In this document: one piece after another, positions 4,048 to 10,345 of the stretch | Layout: every line of letters begins with the position of its first letter | How positions within the stretch are numbered: position 1 is the first letter of the stretch | IMG/VR virus record: IMGVR_UViG_3300009034_000186 | Coordinates: 1-26,889 of that record | Strand: one strand, 5' to 3' | DNA from: a virus | Length of the DNA stretch: 26,889 bases | Made by a program: the position numbers and the translations under genes | Notes under the pieces: generated by a model | The model's database searches: none | Told to the model about the DNA's origin: nothing | The model's input: the letters and a program-made list of their open reading frames with translations, nothing else

Positions 4048-4095
4048 GTCTGTTCTCCTTATCATCGTCTGCGCGTTATCGCGCTCTTAACTACC

Positions 4096-4151
4096 TATAG
4101 TATATCACAGAAAGTAACCGTTTGGCATTAGTAATAGATTAGAAAGTTACC
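4096..4151 (-). promoter_or_regulatory. Leftward promoter-operator element, copy B, at the divergence point
   Basis: This is the second copy of the 56-bp element: extended -10 TGATATACT (hexamer at 4099-4104, minus strand) and boxes GGTTACTTTCT (4109-4119) and GGTAACTTTCT (4141-4151), again 32 bp apart. It drives the 72-aa gene leftward. The outer box overlaps the -35 position of the rightward promoter candidate at 4147-4175, so one protein bound there could affect both directions. Confidence 0.7.
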
Positions 4152-4198: not shown

Positions 4199-4501
4199 GT
4201 GGTGGATCGTATGGACAGGATAGACAGGCTATTTCTTATCGCTATTATGATTGTATCGTGCCTTGTGGCGTTGGGGCTGTTGCTAATCTGGAATAGCGAC
4301 AGAACAGACAACAGAGACGAGTTGGTAGAACATTGCGAGATGTTGGTTATGCTGATGTTTGATGATGAAGCCGAGACGGAGCATTGCGCGGAATGGGCGC
4401 AATTGTTTTATCGAACATATAAAACAGAAGTCGATAAATGTTTTGAATTGTATGATGACGCGCTGTTGGCGCGTTGTTTAGGGCAGATCGCGGATGGGTA
4501 A
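4199..4501 (+). CDS. Small single-pass membrane protein (100 aa)
   Basis: The frame opens at GTG 4199. An in-frame ATG at 4211 (MDRIDRLFL) with GGTGGA just upstream is an equally good start. Residues about 12-31 (FLIAIMIVSCLVALGLLLIW) form a hydrophobic transmembrane helix after a short charged N-terminus. The rest is acidic and Cys-containing (EHCEML, EHCAEW, DKCFEL, ARCLG) and is probably extracytoplasmic or a soluble helical domain. It is the first rightward gene and overlaps the next by 8 bases. It is unlike a canonical holin because it has one membrane segment and a large acidic tail. The role is unknown. Confidence 0.75.
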   Translation: MVDRMDRIDRLFLIAIMIVSCLVALGLLLIWNSDRTDNRDELVEHCEMLVMLMFDDEAETEHCAEWAQLFYRTYKTEVDKCFELYDDALLARCLGQIADG

Positions 4502-4892
4502 TCGCCTGGAATTAGCGAGATCATGGGCGGCCATTATCGGTTATTACGCTGTTTGGCGGCCGACAGAATGGGCGGCGCTTGAGCTGTGGCGTACCGGCCA
4601 AATAAAAGCAAAAAGTTACATAGGGCATGAATACGCTTATCCTCGTTGGATGCCCGACCACGAGAAGCCGTTGGATTTAGACTGGCTACACGCCGCGTCC
4701 GCGCATCCCGATTGCGTTGGCTATAGGTGCAATAATTGCGAGCAACGCAAGCCACTGAGTGACTATTACCAGGATGAAACTTGCAAAACGGGATACAAAA
4801 CAATCTGTAAAGGCTGTATTCGCAAACAGGAACGCCAGCGCTACGCTAAAAATATGCAACGCCCGATACGTCCATATGCGCGTAATGAATAA
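4494..4892 (+). CDS. Zinc-finger protein resembling the lead domain of phage endonuclease VII/HNH proteins (132 aa)
   Basis: Residues 79-118 contain C79-x2-C82, then RKPLSDYYQDETCKTGYKTI, then C105-x2-C108 and a basic helix (IRKQERQRYAKN). This Cys4 module commonly precedes an endonuclease VII or HNH domain in phage proteins. Here the protein ends soon after the helix, so no His/Asn nuclease core is present. It may be a stand-alone DNA-binding protein or a truncated nuclease. The N-terminal half is Trp-rich (WRPTEWAALELWRTGQIK) and unrecognised. The ATG lies inside the preceding gene (ATGGGTAA), which suggests coupling. Confidence 0.8.
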   Translation: MGNRLELARSWAAIIGYYAVWRPTEWAALELWRTGQIKAKSYIGHEYAYPRWMPDHEKPLDLDWLHAASAHPDCVGYRCNNCEQRKPLSDYYQDETCKTGYKTICKGCIRKQERQRYAKNMQRPIRPYARNE

Positions 4893-4915
4893 TTTCTTAA
4901 TTTCTTTCGGATGCC

Positions 4916-4943
4916 TTGACAATATTTATACTTGCTTTATAAT
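4916..4943 (+). promoter_or_regulatory. Consensus sigma-70 promoter
   Basis: TTGACA (4916-4921) and TATAAT (4938-4943) match the consensus perfectly with a 16-bp spacer. Predicted transcription start is near 4950. It is the best promoter in the window, yet only a short terminated segment lies directly downstream. Confidence 0.8.
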
Positions 4944-4949
4944 AGGATC

Positions 4950-5037
4950 AGGAGTTGCAATATTGCGATTCCACAGGAAACACGTTAAACTAAATCGAAT
5001 AGTGGAAACGCCACGCCAAACGTCACGTGGCGTTTTT
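4950..5037 (+). ncRNA. Candidate small RNA (~88 nt)
   Basis: A perfect promoter fires into this segment, which ends at an intrinsic terminator. It has no ATG-initiated gene. A TTG-started 34-codon frame would run past the terminator to 5067, so it is unlikely to be the product. Visible helices are the palindrome GCAATATTGC (4957-4966), TTCCAC (4969-4974) pairing with GTGGAA (5002-5007), and the terminator stem. It could be a stand-alone regulatory RNA or the leader of a controlled read-through transcript into the 5307 gene. No known RNA family is recognised. Confidence 0.5.
5006..5037 (+). terminator. Intrinsic terminator
   Basis: AAACGCCACG (5006-5015) pairs over 10 bp with CGTGGCGTTT (5026-5035) around a 10-nt loop. 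The 3' arm merges with the T-run TTTTT (5033-5037). Confidence 0.8.
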
Positions 5038-5045
5038 ACATTCTA

Positions 5046-5156
5046 TCCCGCGCAGGTTGCGACCTGATTATCCGCTTCTTTCGTATACAGGTGTGTTCGA
5101 TCTATGTTAGCCATTGTGGATAGTTAGTGTATCGGTTCGAATCCGATAGCGGGAAT
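5046..5156 (+). other. tRNA-like 3' half (T-arm and acceptor strand), not a complete tRNA
   Basis: Positions 5131-5147 form a perfect T-arm, ATCGG-TTCGAAT-CCGAT, with the invariant GTTCGA core. The seven following bases AGCGGGA and an A match an acceptor 3' strand and discriminator. TCCCGC at 5046-5051 can pair with GCGGGA 5149-5154, but that gives a 110-nt molecule. A closer partner, TCCGCT at 5071-5076, gives about 86 nt with a mismatch. I could not build a normal D-arm or a 7-nt anticodon loop. It may be a decayed tRNA, a tRNA-like structure, or an attachment site copied from a host tRNA 3' end. Confidence 0.4.
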
Positions 5157-5306
5157 CTTATTATGGCGACTGCGAGCGCTGTAATAAGATGTTATAATTT
5201 CCTTTCGTCGTCAATGCGAAGCAAACTGACATTGACGGGCTTGCGGAATGTGCCCGCAAAGTACAAAACATTCCGTGTTTTTGTGAATTGACGGAGAGGG
5301 CGATTG
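5155..5306 (+). promoter_or_regulatory. Structured upstream region and leader of the DUF3307 gene
   Basis: An exact inverted repeat ATCTTATTA (5155-5163)/TAATAAGAT (5182-5190) abuts an extended -10, TGTTATAAT (5190-5198). The predicted leader then holds GTCAATG/CATTGAC (5210-5216 and 5230-5236). It also holds two mutually exclusive hairpins: TTGCGG/CCGCAA (5241-5246 and 5254-5259) against CGGAATGT/ACATTCCG (5244-5251 and 5268-5275), the latter followed by TGTTTTT like a terminator. GGAGAGG then precedes the gene start. This layout suggests attenuation, but no known riboswitch is recognised. Confidence 0.4.
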
Positions 5307-5651
5307 ATGGACGCAACCGACTATCTTGTGTGGGGAATTGTAATTCATTTGGTCTGTGATTGGATTTTTCAGAATGAATGGATTGCTGTTAACAAAGTCT
5401 CCCTTCGACATGGGGCTAGTTGGCTGCACGGCTTCATTCATTCTGCTGGAATGATGTTAATCTTCTCTCCTCTGGTCGCGTTGCTTATTGGATTATCACA
5501 CATAATAATCGACTTGCGCTTTATTATGGCGTTTTGGCGCAAGGTATTTAGGCAGACAACAGCAGGTATGTATGCCGTTCCCGTTGCTGTTTGGGGCGAC
5601 CAAACCGCGCACATAGTTATAATTGCTTTCGCGGCGTTGATGATAGGATAG
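5307..5651 (+). CDS. DUF3307-type membrane protein (114 aa)
   Basis: ATG 5307 (MDATDYLVWG) follows GGAGAGG; an in-frame TTG at 5304 is a less likely start. The signature HLVCDWIFQNEWIAVNK near residues 14-30 (His-x3-Asp-x3-Gln, then Asn-Lys), later HGFIH, SHIIIDL and the C-terminal DQTAHIV match the DUF3307 family of phage and bacterial membrane proteins. Four hydrophobic segments are visible: residues about 7-24, 45-60, a short one near 62-75, and the C-terminal AHIVIIAFAALMIG. The family has no established function. The His/Asp pattern inside the membrane hints at metal or small-molecule handling. Its last 41 coding bases are duplicated at 6204-6244. Confidence 0.82.
   Translation: MDATDYLVWGIVIHLVCDWIFQNEWIAVNKVSLRHGASWLHGFIHSAGMMLIFSPLVALLIGLSHIIIDLRFIMAFWRKVFRQTTAGMYAVPVAVWGDQTAHIVIIAFAALMIG
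5607..5647 (+). repeat. 41-bp direct repeat, copy 1 (inside the DUF3307 3' end)
   Basis: It begins GCGCACATAG and ends GATGATAGG. It is 39/41 identical to 6204-6244 and encodes the last membrane helix of the DUF3307 protein. Confidence 0.9.
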
Positions 5652-6155: not shown

Positions 6156-6251
6156 ATGAAATGGGTTAAACAGAAACGAAAAAGTAAAATAGCAACTGGC
6201 TCAGCGCACATAGTTGTAATTGCTTTTGCGGCGTTGATGATAGGTAACTGA
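6156..6251 (+). CDS. 31-aa membrane peptide built from a duplicated DUF3307 tail
   Basis: ATG 6156 follows GAGG by 7 nt. The first 15 residues are strongly basic (MKWVKQKRKSKIATG). The second half, AHIVVIAFAALMIGN, is the last membrane helix of the DUF3307 protein, carried by a 39/41-identical direct repeat. The stop is TGA 6249-6251. It could be a real basic-plus-hydrophobic micropeptide or simply the remnant of a DUF3307 copy left by a duplication. The in-frame ribosome-binding site and the conserved helix make translation plausible. Confidence 0.45.
   Translation: MKWVKQKRKSKIATGSAHIVVIAFAALMIGN
6204..6244 (+). repeat. 41-bp direct repeat, copy 2
   Basis: Near-identical to 5607-5647. The two differences are an A/G and a C/T transition; the first changes Ile to Val and the second is silent. 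Confidence 0.9.
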
Positions 6252-6294: not shown

Positions 6295-6996
6295 TTGATA
6301 GATGAAATCTATGTCGAGTACATGGCGCTCTCGGATCTAATGAATCGTCAACACCCGGCGAATCCAAAGAGCCATGACCTCGGAGCAGTTATTACTTCAT
6401 ACAAAGCCTACGGCTATGTTGCGCCGGGCGTTATTGACGAATTGAGCGGGCTGTTCCTTTGCGGGCATGGCCGGACACAAGCCCTCAATATGATGAAACG
6501 ACAGAAGATGGAAGCGCCAGGGCGCATTGATGTTCGTGATGACGATTGGTATGTGCCAACCAATCGGGGTGTTCGGTTCGAGAACGAAGCGCAAGTTAAG
6601 GGATACCTGATAGCCGATAATCGTCTCACTATTTTGGGCGGTTGGGATGAACACGCGCTAGTCGATATGCTTCAAGAGCTAGCGACCATCGATGAGGAAA
6701 TGGTGATTTCGAGTGGGTATGATCTAGATGATTTAGACGCTCTTTTGTTTGGGTTGTCATTTGAATTAATCGGCGATAGTGATAATGTTGACGGCAAAAA
6801 CCAGCGCGATATTATGGATAAAATACACGGCACAGGAGCGCGGTTAATTCGGTTTGAATTTGGCGATATTGGGGTTATGGTAGATTCTGTAATATATCAA
6901 AACACATTGAAAATTTTGGGCGGAGTTGATAATAAAGCAACTATGATTGAGCAAATAATAAAAGCGGGGATTGATGTTATCAGTAGCCATAGTTGA
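6295..6996 (+). CDS. ParB-like (ParB/Srx fold) protein (233 aa)
   Basis: The start is TTG 6295 (MIDEIYVEYMALSDL), preceded by GAGG 6 nt upstream. Residues 10-75 carry the ParB-like core: MALSDLMNRQHPANPKSHD, then GHGRTQAL at 57-64, equivalent to the ParB G-H-x-R nucleotide-binding box. Residues about 100-150 (AQVKGYLIADNRLTILGGWDEHAL…) match the segment that follows ParB domains in phage ParB-methyltransferase fusions. Here no methyltransferase follows; instead the gene overlaps a radical-SAM gene. ParB/Srx-fold domains bind or hydrolyse nucleotides (CTP in ParB). The C-terminal 85 residues are unrecognised. It probably works with its neighbour on phage DNA or nucleotides, which is inference. 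Confidence 0.85.
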   Translation: MIDEIYVEYMALSDLMNRQHPANPKSHDLGAVITSYKAYGYVAPGVIDELSGLFLCGHGRTQALNMMKRQKMEAPGRIDVRDDDWYVPTNRGVRFENEAQVKGYLIADNRLTILGGWDEHALVDMLQELATIDEEMVISSGYDLDDLDALLFGLSFELIGDSDNVDGKNQRDIMDKIHGTGARLIRFEFGDIGVMVDSVIYQNTLKILGGVDNKATMIEQIIKAGIDVISSHS

Positions 6997-8374
6997 TGCA
7001 AATGCTAAAGCGAATAAAAATTATAGCCAATATCAACTAACATCAGTTGTTTCCCGATGGTTGGAATGGGAATGTCAAAAAAAGAACATAAATATAGTTG
7101 ATATGGGGAAGGCTGATATTGTTTTCGTGTGTCATGCCGGGATCGTCGATTGGGTCAAGCGGATAAAAACAATACGGTCAAAAGCGCCGCGTGGCTATCT
7201 TATTACAGGCGGCGCAATAGACACCGCCCCATTAACTGCGCTGAAATATTGTGATGCTGTTGTTATTGGTGAAGCATACCGGTTTGTCCGGCACATTTTG
7301 AATTTGTGTCGTCGGGAAAACTCAATTGATGCGATTCGAGAATTTATTATTCAGTATGAACACGCGATAGAAAGATCGCAAATAAGCGAACTTGAACGGG
7401 ATATGCAGAATCTATGTTTATTACAAGATATACCTTCACACCTGGCAAGCCCAGATGAATTTGTTGATTGGAATGTCCCTCCGGTCTTATCTGATGATGA
7501 TTGTGTTCGATTAATTGCATCTAAAGGGTGTCGTATGAAATGTAAATTTTGCGCGACAACATGGCGACAACCATATTTAGTATCTCCTTATGGTAAACGC
7601 TTGGCAGCAATTGCTTCTCGATTGCAATCAGAGAAAAGGAAGGTAATGTTGATTACAAATGATGCCGCAGCTCTGCCTTTTTTGGGAGAGGTTGCGCACA
7701 CAAAGCTAAGCGCTCAAAGCCTCTCTTACCACGCGCTAAAAGATGAGTCGGTTATTATGGATATTATCAAATCAAAGCCCAGAATTGTAAGAATAGGAGT
7801 CGAGGGAATCTCCCATCGTATCCGGGTGGCAGTAGGGAAACCAATTTTGACAGATCGGTTATTGTTCATTTTAAAGATGTTTCAAAAAGCCAGAATCAAT
7901 ACGCACTTATTTTTTATTCATGGGATGCCTTATACAAATGATAGTGACTGGGAAGAGTTCAAAGACTTATATTTACAATTAGTATCACAGTGTAAATGGG
8001 GGATTACTCGGTTAAAATTTACCACGTTTAACCCTCAGCCTCCCACACCCATGACGCGGTTTATACAGCCTGCAAATCAAGATACTAAGATGCAAAAATT
8101 TTTAGAGTGGGCTAAGTTCAATTGCGCAACCAAGCATATAATGCGGATACAGGGTAGGCGTAATAAAAAATGGCAACTCGATTATGGTGACACTTTTGAT
8201 GTTTCAAAGTCATATATAGAATTTATGCAGTCAAGTAGAGATACTACTGATATTGCGCCCTCGCTAGGCGAGTTCGGGAGGCTTGGTAGTGAATTGGTCA
8301 GGTGGCCGTCATCTGCAAAAACGCGCTGGTTGTTGGGAAATAAATACAAGCAAATGATGTTAAACCGGAGCTAA
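6974..8374 (+). CDS. B12-binding-like radical SAM enzyme (466 aa)
   Basis: The [4Fe-4S] motif is C186-x3-C190-x2-C193 in ASKGCRMKCKFCA, classic for radical SAM enzymes. Residues 1-115 look like the Rossmann domain of class B radical SAM enzymes (ITGGAIDTAPL and DAVVIGEAYRF parallel the usual GGPH and GE-G-E segments). The cobalamin-ligand DxHxxG motif is absent. Later GVEGIS and FFIHGMPYTNDSDWEEF fit the conserved strands of the SAM barrel. Start choice: ATG 6974 with GCGGGG upstream, or TTG 6971. It overlaps the ParB-like gene by 23 bases. Radical SAM enzymes methylate, thiolate or otherwise modify substrates. The substrate here may be DNA, a nucleotide or a virion protein. Confidence 0.88.
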   Translation: MLSVAIVDANAKANKNYSQYQLTSVVSRWLEWECQKKNINIVDMGKADIVFVCHAGIVDWVKRIKTIRSKAPRGYLITGGAIDTAPLTALKYCDAVVIGEAYRFVRHILNLCRRENSIDAIREFIIQYEHAIERSQISELERDMQNLCLLQDIPSHLASPDEFVDWNVPPVLSDDDCVRLIASKGCRMKCKFCATTWRQPYLVSPYGKRLAAIASRLQSEKRKVMLITNDAAALPFLGEVAHTKLSAQSLSYHALKDESVIMDIIKSKPRIVRIGVEGISHRIRVAVGKPILTDRLLFILKMFQKARINTHLFFIHGMPYTNDSDWEEFKDLYLQLVSQCKWGITRLKFTTFNPQPPTPMTRFIQPANQDTKMQKFLEWAKFNCATKHIMRIQGRRNKKWQLDYGDTFDVSKSYIEFMQSSRDTTDIAPSLGEFGRLGSELVRWPSSAKTRWLLGNKYKQMMLNRS

Positions 8375-8439: not shown

Positions 8440-9093
8440 ATGCGAAGCAATAACCCCCACGCACATCAATGCGGGGCAAAAACTCGCAATGGCGGAACGT
8501 GTAAAAACCCGCCAATAACCGGGCGCACGCGCTGTCGTATGCACGGTGGCAAAACACCCAACGGGTACGCCCTGCCCCAGACTAAGCACGGGCGATATAG
8601 CAAGTACCTTCCAGCGCGATTGGCGGATAAATACAGGGAGGCGGCTAGTGATCCCGACCTGTTGAATCTCAGTTCAGAAATCGCGCTTATTGATAGCCGC
8701 ATTGCCGAGCAGCTTGGGAGAGTGGCTGGAGATGCCATCGGTCATATCTGGGCGGAAATACGGAGGGTCTCGAAAGAGCTTTCGTTAGCAGTTCAGGCGC
8801 AAGACGCAGAGTGGATGCAAAAACTGTTCAGAGAACTTGATGAGTTATCCCGACAAGGCAATGCCGACTATCGAGGTTGGCAAGATATTCTTGAGTTAAT
8901 TGAACAGCGCCGCAGGCTCGTAGAATCGGAGCGCAAGCGGCGGGTAGAAATGCAGCATAACATCACGGCGGAACGTGCCGTGCTGCTTGTGTCGGCCATT
9001 GTAGGGATTATACGTGATAATGTACAGGACAGAACCATTCTTGCCGCAATCCAACATGACGTTGGAAAACTCATTACTATCGATAGTACATGA
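8440..9093 (+). CDS. Probable terminase small subunit with HGG zinc-finger N-terminus (217 aa)
   Basis: Residues 11-36 read CGAKTRNGGTCKN…RCRMHGG, placing C11, C21, C32 and H35 as a metal site. They are followed by GYALPQTKHGRYSKYLP. This HGG-type module is widespread at the start of phage small-terminase-like proteins encoded directly before TerL. The remainder is helical with a long coiled segment (LIEQRRRLVESERKRRVEMQH), as expected for oligomerising small terminases that recognise packaging sites. GGAG precedes the ATG by 7 nt. It overlaps the TerL start. The call rests on position and architecture; sequence similarity to characterised TerS proteins is low in general. Confidence 0.72.
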   Translation: MRSNNPHAHQCGAKTRNGGTCKNPPITGRTRCRMHGGKTPNGYALPQTKHGRYSKYLPARLADKYREAASDPDLLNLSSEIALIDSRIAEQLGRVAGDAIGHIWAEIRRVSKELSLAVQAQDAEWMQKLFRELDELSRQGNADYRGWQDILELIEQRRRLVESERKRRVEMQHNITAERAVLLVSAIVGIIRDNVQDRTILAAIQHDVGKLITIDST

Positions 9094-10345
9094 TCGACTT
9101 AGCGACGCGGCGGATAATCCGTTAGCGCTCTCAGATTTGCCAACCCCATATGACAGACAACGGGAAATTCTGCTTTCCCCGGCAATGCGTAAAGTCGTAG
9201 TCGCTGGGCGGCAAGTAGGAAAGACCATGATGGCGAGCATGTCGGCCATCGGGGGAAAACAATATGGCGGATGCGGACTGCTGGACGGCGCTCACGTGCA
9301 TCTGTCAAGCACGACGCAAGACCAGTCCGATTTATTTTGGGATTATATCAAGACCTGGCTACGGCCATTATTCGACATGCCCGGCTTTTATAAGAATGAA
9401 AGCCGGCGCATTATAGAATATCGCGGTGGCAGAATTCGGGTGAAAACAGGCAAAACACCCGACACCCTGCGCGGCGGAAATGTTAATAAGTTGATTTTGG
9501 ATGAGTGTGGTAGGCTTGACCCTACCGCGTGGAAAACTGTCGGAGCGCCCATGCTGGTCGCTCGAAGGGGCGTTGCTGAATTTTATGGCACGCCATTGCG
9601 CCGTAATTGGTTTTTCCGATTATTTCTTAGCGCCAATGATCCGCAAAATACTGAGTGGCAAGCGTGGAACTTTAGCACGTTAAAGAATCCGCATTTATCA
9701 GAAGAGGCTTTGAAGCTGCTCATAGCGGACATGACTGAAGAGGATTATCAGGAAGAAATACTCGCCCAGTTCCTGGCCGGACAGGGCGCGGTATTCCGCT
9801 ATATTGATGAGCGCAGTACGGCCACGATACAAGGGCCATATGAGGGGCGCTTTGTTTTTGGAATTGACTGGGCGCAAATAAAAGATTACACGGTAATCGT
9901 GGTCATTGATCGAGACAAACAATGTGTGGTGGATTATGATCGATTCAACGGCGTTGACTGGGCATTGCAGCGCGGGCGCGTTGTAACGATGTATGAGAAG
10001 TGGAAGCCTTATGTTATCTGGGCTGAAGAGAACAGTATCGGAAGCCCAAACATCGAGGCGTTGCAACGCGAGGGGCTTCCCGTGCGCGGCTTTATGACAA
10101 CGGCGAGAAGCAAGCCTGGGCTTATCGAAAGCCTTGTTCTGGCTTTTGACCGGGGCGAAATAGAAAGTTTAAACGACCCGGTTATCAAGGGCGAATTGAT
10201 GAGTTACGAACGGAAAGTAACGCCCACGAACCGCAGTCAGTACAGCGCCCCGGACGGGATGCACGATGATTGTGTGATCGCGCTTGCGCTGGCATGGCAC
10301 GGTGTGATGCGTAGCGCCACTGACTTATCGGTGATATTTATTTAA
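9014..10345 (+). CDS. terL: Terminase large subunit (443 aa)
   Basis: The packaging ATPase-nuclease. Counting from GTG 9014, Walker A is AGRQVGKT at 64-71, Walker B LILDE at 160-164, and the coupling segment FYGTP at 190-194. The RNase H-like nuclease has FGIDWAQ (D285), WAEENSIG (E338/E339) and DGMHDD (D418/D419). All expected acidic residues are present, so it should be active. GTG 9014 has AGGGA 6 nt upstream; alternatives are ATG 9020 and ATG 9056, the last with no ribosome-binding site. The gene overlaps the small-subunit gene by 80 bases if GTG is used. It sits immediately before portal, the usual order. Confidence 0.96.
   Translation: MIMYRTEPFLPQSNMTLENSLLSIVHDRLSDAADNPLALSDLPTPYDRQREILLSPAMRKVVVAGRQVGKTMMASMSAIGGKQYGGCGLLDGAHVHLSSTTQDQSDLFWDYIKTWLRPLFDMPGFYKNESRRIIEYRGGRIRVKTGKTPDTLRGGNVNKLILDECGRLDPTAWKTVGAPMLVARRGVAEFYGTPLRRNWFFRLFLSANDPQNTEWQAWNFSTLKNPHLSEEALKLLIADMTEEDYQEEILAQFLAGQGAVFRYIDERSTATIQGPYEGRFVFGIDWAQIKDYTVIVVIDRDKQCVVDYDRFNGVDWALQRGRVVTMYEKWKPYVIWAEENSIGSPNIEALQREGLPVRGFMTTARSKPGLIESLVLAFDRGEIESLNDPVIKGELMSYERKVTPTNRSQYSAPDGMHDDCVIALALAWHGVMRSATDLSVIFI

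Follow-up and report, generated by a model that had tools for sequence, protein, structure and literature searches.

A putative terminated leader unit ahead of the packaging and structural genes of an uncultured phage

The window analysed here, an IMG/VR record of 26,890 bases, carries leftward genes below 4065 and rightward main ORFs from 5307 to 25944; the replication genes (primase/helicase and replication initiator) are leftward on the twin contig described below. Two small rightward genes (4199-4501 and 4494-4892) precede a gap of 414 nt (4893-5306). Beyond it, genes for a DUF3307 membrane protein, a protein of unnamed function (5699), a ParB-like protein (6295), and a radical SAM protein (6971) are followed by those for a probable small terminase subunit (8440, with an HGGxSTG domain and a weak match to TerS), the large terminase subunit (TerL), the portal protein (10363), and further proteins. 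The gap contains a sigma-70-type promoter (P1) and an intrinsic terminator (Table 1), and the order of the genes therefore places this promoter-terminator unit at the head of a packaging/structural operon. All of the gap looks non-coding. Codon scores for 5127-5291 and for the six frames of the gap range from -0.06 to 0.07, below the 0.08 to 0.39 of real genes, and genes inside it were rejected on this basis. The gap is unusually long and structured, and the RNA predicted from P1 takes up just a portion of it. Within the operon, the radical SAM protein (6971-8374, PF04055) is encoded between the ParB-like and terminase genes, and no close viral relative of it was found. The final stretch of the DUF3307 gene recurs ahead of the ParB-like gene as a 41-nt direct repeat (5607-5647 and 6204-6244, 95% identical), probably a partial gene duplication.

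Table 1 Features in and around the intergenic gap upstream of the rightward operon
Feature	Position	Strand	Basis or remarks
132-aa gene directly upstream, C-x2-C...C-x2-C motif	4494..4892	+	Weak endonuclease VII / HNH / Lar-like PHROG matches
Full-consensus sigma-70 promoter P1, TTGACA-N16-TATAAT	4916..4943	+	Sole 12/12 match in window
Predicted 88-nt terminated RNA (leader RNA / sRNA candidate)	4950..5037	+	Start site placed by promoter geometry; MFE -29.3 kcal/mol, z -4.4
5'-terminal 9-bp hairpin GGAGUUGCAAUAUUGCGAUUCC	4951..4972 (+2 to +23)	+	RNA folding
Mostly unpaired A-rich linker ACAGGAAACACGUUAAACUAAAUCGAAUAGUGG (would-be seed region)	4973..5005	+	RNA folding
Intrinsic terminator	5006..5037	+	Stem 5006-5015/5026-5035, loop 10, T5 5033-5037; hairpin about -15 kcal/mol
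tRNA-like fold	5046..5154	+	Acceptor-like stem 5046-5051/5149-5154 abutting T-arm 5130-5148 (GGTTCGAATCC)
14-bp inverted repeat / hairpin (operator or RNA stem)	5155..5190	+	z -4.0
Extended -10 TGTTATAAT, candidate second promoter P2 of downstream operon	5190..5198	+	Consensus match only
DUF3307 membrane protein, first gene downstream, operon start	5307..5651	+	PF11750 E 3.8e-8
Large terminase subunit, in downstream operon	9014..10345	+	TerL

P1 consists of TTGACA (4916-4921), a 16-bp spacer, and TATAAT (4938-4943). This is the one full-consensus match observed in the window. In 400 first-order Markov randomised copies, with spacers of 16-18 bp counted on both strands, 0.01 such matches are expected per window. 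From this geometry, transcription is expected to start at A4950, 7 nt past the -10 element. A second full-consensus TTGACA-N16-TATAAT, its spacer again 16 bp long, is found on the twin contig (L089 9761-9734, minus strand), suggesting that the phage really uses such promoters. That second promoter is overlapped by a perfect palindrome (ACATTAT-N4-ATAATGT) and lies a few nucleotides before an ATG, an arrangement that would give a near-leaderless mRNA. The only direct repeat around P1 is CAATATT, at 4920 and 4958, and a 7-nt repeat in this 76-nt AT-rich stretch is estimated to be not unusual. Just inside the transcribed region, a -10-like hexamer with an upstream TG (AATATT, 4959-4964, plus strand, +10 to +15) is possibly a sigma-dependent pause element. 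It is a weak candidate, since 49% of arbitrary 30-nt windows hold an equally good hexamer.

The terminator has a perfect stem of 10 bp (AAACGCCACG/CGTGGCGTTT), which begins at +57 relative to the expected start site, and TTTTT at 5033-5037. On a conservative reading it is a 7-bp GC-rich hairpin with U5, followed by ACAUUCU, which makes it a good, not extreme, terminator. An automated terminator scan misses it because the scan allows a loop of at most 8, and the loop here is 10. Both elements named in the original prediction, the perfect sigma-70 promoter and the GC-rich 10-bp stem with its T-run, are thus present where it placed them and on the same strand. The pairing of the two is also rare. 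When the combined unit is defined as a promoter matching at least 11 of 12 positions with a terminator 30-220 nt further on the same strand, it occurs once in about 47 kb of assembled phage sequence and in none of 20 randomised copies. Nor does it occur in a further 821 kb of loci, which come almost entirely from contigs with a related terminase. The promoter-terminator observation is therefore confirmed and is not due to chance.

Provided that sigma-70-type promoters are used in the host, P1 very likely gives rise to a short terminated transcript. The mean folding energy of shuffled versions of this 88-nt RNA is -16.9 kcal/mol, and none of 200 shuffles folds as well as the RNA itself; its 5' part without the terminator (z -3.2) is likewise better than 200 shuffles. 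From 5' to 3', a hairpin, about 32 unpaired nucleotides, and the terminator follow one another. The apex of the 5' hairpin, GCAATATTGC, is a palindrome in the DNA as well; neither it nor any of the other palindromes recurs in the assembled phage sequence, and a repeated operator was rejected accordingly. The original prediction held that no ATG gene fits between promoter and terminator, and indeed the unit contains no ATG ORF of at least 20 aa. A candidate frame of 34 codons does start from the TTG at 4963, which follows an AGGAG (4950-4954) by 8 nt, and runs through the terminator to 5064. The Rfam search that had been proposed for the RNA returned no family: covariance models, including that for tRNA, gave no match in the locus, and a Yar_2 match with an E value of 0.55 lies far below the family cut-off and is put down to chance. 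When the unpaired linker was paired with 50 phage translation starts, the best duplex was no better than those of shuffles (fraction 0.39). The further proposal of a dedicated regulatory or decoy RNA stands in part, in that a short terminated transcript is very likely and its anatomy fits an sRNA. As a whole the phrase exceeds the evidence. The unit lies directly before the packaging/structural operon, and no in-phage target rises above shuffles. A dedicated regulatory RNA at 4950-5037 is no more than possible.

Structure continues beyond the terminator, and the whole leader (4950-5306) is strongly structured (z -5.1). Its next element is a tRNA-like fold in which a T-arm hairpin with the B-box-like GGTTCGAATCC and a 6-bp acceptor-like stem form 12 coaxial base pairs, as in a tRNA minihelix, and a long central arm replaces the normal D and anticodon arms. 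Scanned for as a pattern defined post hoc, this geometry is expected 0.005 times per randomised window, and other loci totalling 836 kb do not contain it. The fold is kept as a lead, because the pattern is post hoc and the segment 5038-5160 as a whole folds with a z of only -1.8. ARAGORN at normal settings and RF00005 are both negative, excluding a real tRNA or tmRNA at this position; with loosened thresholds, ARAGORN returned only hundreds of meaningless matches. An attP reading of the T-arm was rejected for now, as the 19-mer TTCGAATCCGATAGCGGGA has two matches in all GTDB contigs, both outside any detectable tRNA gene, and the twin contig matches no profile of a tyrosine or large serine recombinase. 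Nearer to the first gene, the right arm of the 14-bp inverted repeat abuts the extended -10 TGTTATAAT, and judging by these motifs 5155-5198 is possibly a regulated second promoter (P2) of the late operon.

Within IMG/VR, just one further record covers the locus, namely IMGVR_UViG_3300009034_000066 (the twin contig, 47,392 bases). It agrees with the window at 99.86% identity over 20 kb, and across 4881-5306 the identity is 100%. Promoter and stem are accordingly identical in this sole relative. The two ends of the twin contig share no sequence, so it may be incomplete. Searches with blastn and tblastn against phages and plasmids, and scans of viral contigs with flanking proteins, TerL, and DNA patterns, found no distant homologues of the stretch or its neighbours. 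Relatives were found for TerL only and, weakly, for the portal and a few structural genes; even the 66% TerL relative shares no gene in the interval between the locus and TerL.

The locus resembles several promoters at which phages and phage-like elements control transcription by termination close to the start. In Q-type phages, the late promoter PR', the terminator tR', and the late genes follow in this order, and in phage 21 the Q protein binds within PR' and carries the polymerase past tR' (PMC6606751). Judged on sequence features, the window has the layout of such a Q-dependent gate: a constitutive-type sigma-70 promoter and then an intrinsic terminator upstream of a late operon. It shares with the PR'-tR' regions of lambda and 21 the strong promoter, the short non-coding transcript, the same-strand late genes, and a small gene just upstream. 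Unlike in those phages, the nearest late genes encode packaging and not lysis functions, and they lie behind the DUF3307, ParB-like, and radical SAM genes. The Q binding element of phage 21 is a direct repeat embedded in the promoter, whereas here there is only the CAATATT pair. At alpB of Pseudomonas aeruginosa, the terminator tB starts 54 nt after the transcription start and is passed with the help of AlpA (PMC7969949), a distance close to the 57 nt found here, and both units precede the first gene of a phage-like operon; the AlpA binding element, between -35 and -10, is a feature of alpB. GafZ has a similar antitermination role at the Caulobacter GTA cluster (PMC11150451). Terminated RNAs from such regions can be stable, as for the sRNA StxS from the PR'-tR' region of Stx phages (PMC7873438). 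Like the RNA predicted here, StxS is a short RNA bounded by a late promoter and a terminator; processing by RNase E, binding by Hfq, and demonstrated targets are features of StxS itself. The IsrK unit of Gifsy-1 yields both a short RNA and, through readthrough, an mRNA (PMC4825925), the two products predicted for the present locus, and also has a gene in the Q position upstream. That gene is a true Q-like antiterminator, however, and the genes downstream are orf45-anrP and not packaging genes.

An antiterminator of a known family was not evident. None of the Q families PF06530, PF03589, and PF06576 was found in the 47,392-base, possibly incomplete twin contig, which is a difference from the lambdoid phages. 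This absence is tempered by AlpA and GafZ, neither of which resembles Q in sequence (PMC7969949, PMC11150451), showing that antiterminators need not do so. In position only, the gene at 4494-4892 corresponds to Q-type antiterminators. As a Q analogue its 132-aa product was rejected, having no match in Pfam or NCBIfam and no convincing relative of solved structure; its AlphaFold model was set aside because of a mean pLDDT of 51.

We favour a reading in which 4916-5037 is a putative terminated leader unit that gates the late operon, and assign it a probability of roughly 45%. Promoter, terminator, structure, and same-strand position before the operon can all be read from the sequence, and a strong promoter, a terminator after 57 nt, and then an operon is the layout of antitermination-gated promoters; the preference rests on this and on the parallel with phage 21, alpB, and GafZ. 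Host RNA polymerase, provided that it uses sigma-70 here, would start constitutively at P1, synthesise about 56 nt including the 5' hairpin, and in vivo stop at the terminator, releasing an RNA of about 88 nt. Presumably late in infection, the polymerase may be let past the terminator by an antitermination factor of the phage or by the leader's own structure, so that readthrough would transcribe the rightward operon from 5307 on. The short RNA set free would be a by-product at the least, perhaps with a secondary role in trans. Against the gate, the possibly incomplete twin contig matches no known Q family, P2 could possibly feed the operon without P1, and the pause-like hexamer is no better than background.

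The gated leader is preferred to a stand-alone sRNA, a tentative alternative that we find doubtful, in which the 88-nt RNA from P1, with a protective 5' hairpin, a seed of about 32 unpaired nt, and a terminator tail, would target mRNAs of the host or the phage in trans while the late operon uses P2. The anatomy of the RNA fits this alternative, as does the possible operon promoter formed between terminator and first gene by the extended -10 and the 14-bp inverted repeat, but neither the target pairing within the phage nor the Rfam search lends it weight, and control in cis better explains the position before the late operon. Attenuation in cis without a protein, with the leader or translation of the TTG frame choosing between termination and readthrough into the structured 5038-5306 and the operon, is unlikely. 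The spacing of the AGGAG to the TTG, a frame that crosses the terminator stem, and the strong structure of the leader are consistent with it; in the predicted ensemble, however, no other stem is a convincing competitor of the terminator, the codon score of the frame gives no clear sign of coding, and the Shine-Dalgarno sequence, at +1 to +5 of the RNA, would be unusually near the 5' end. Improbable as well is a plain arrangement in which the terminator ends the 4199-4892 unit, leaky readthrough from P1 supplies the operon, and the short RNA amounts to noise. The terminator does lie about 115 nt after the upstream gene pair and its T-run is only 5, but a perfect promoter before, and not after, a terminator would be wasteful unless gated, and promoter and terminator rarely co-occur in this way by chance.

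A broader version of the gated leader, to which we give little credence, treats 4950-5306 (357 nt) as one composite late-operon leader whose terminator would be under the control of a new phage factor or of the leader, and whose tRNA-like fold would be functional, for example as a processing or protein-binding site coupling late transcription to the state of the host. In more general terms, 4916-5037 is a well-formed putative regulatory unit, real in the sequence and probably ordinary in kind, namely the terminated leader RNA of a phage late operon. If gated, it would add a phage without sequenced close relatives to those that control late genes by promoter-proximal termination, here without a recognisable Q, and would point to a new antitermination factor. 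If it were an sRNA only, it would be one more candidate among many.

The leftward part of the window has repeats of its own. Arrays of repeats with a 15-nt period (1-1143) encode pentapeptide-repeat proteins and run off the left end of the window. Upstream of two leftward genes, a 60-bp direct repeat (1727-1786 and 4092-4151, 92% identical) carries on the minus strand of each copy an extended -10 (TGATATACT) and two GGTWACTTTCT repeats 32 bp apart, suggesting that the copies are likely a shared leftward promoter module with putative activator or repressor sites.
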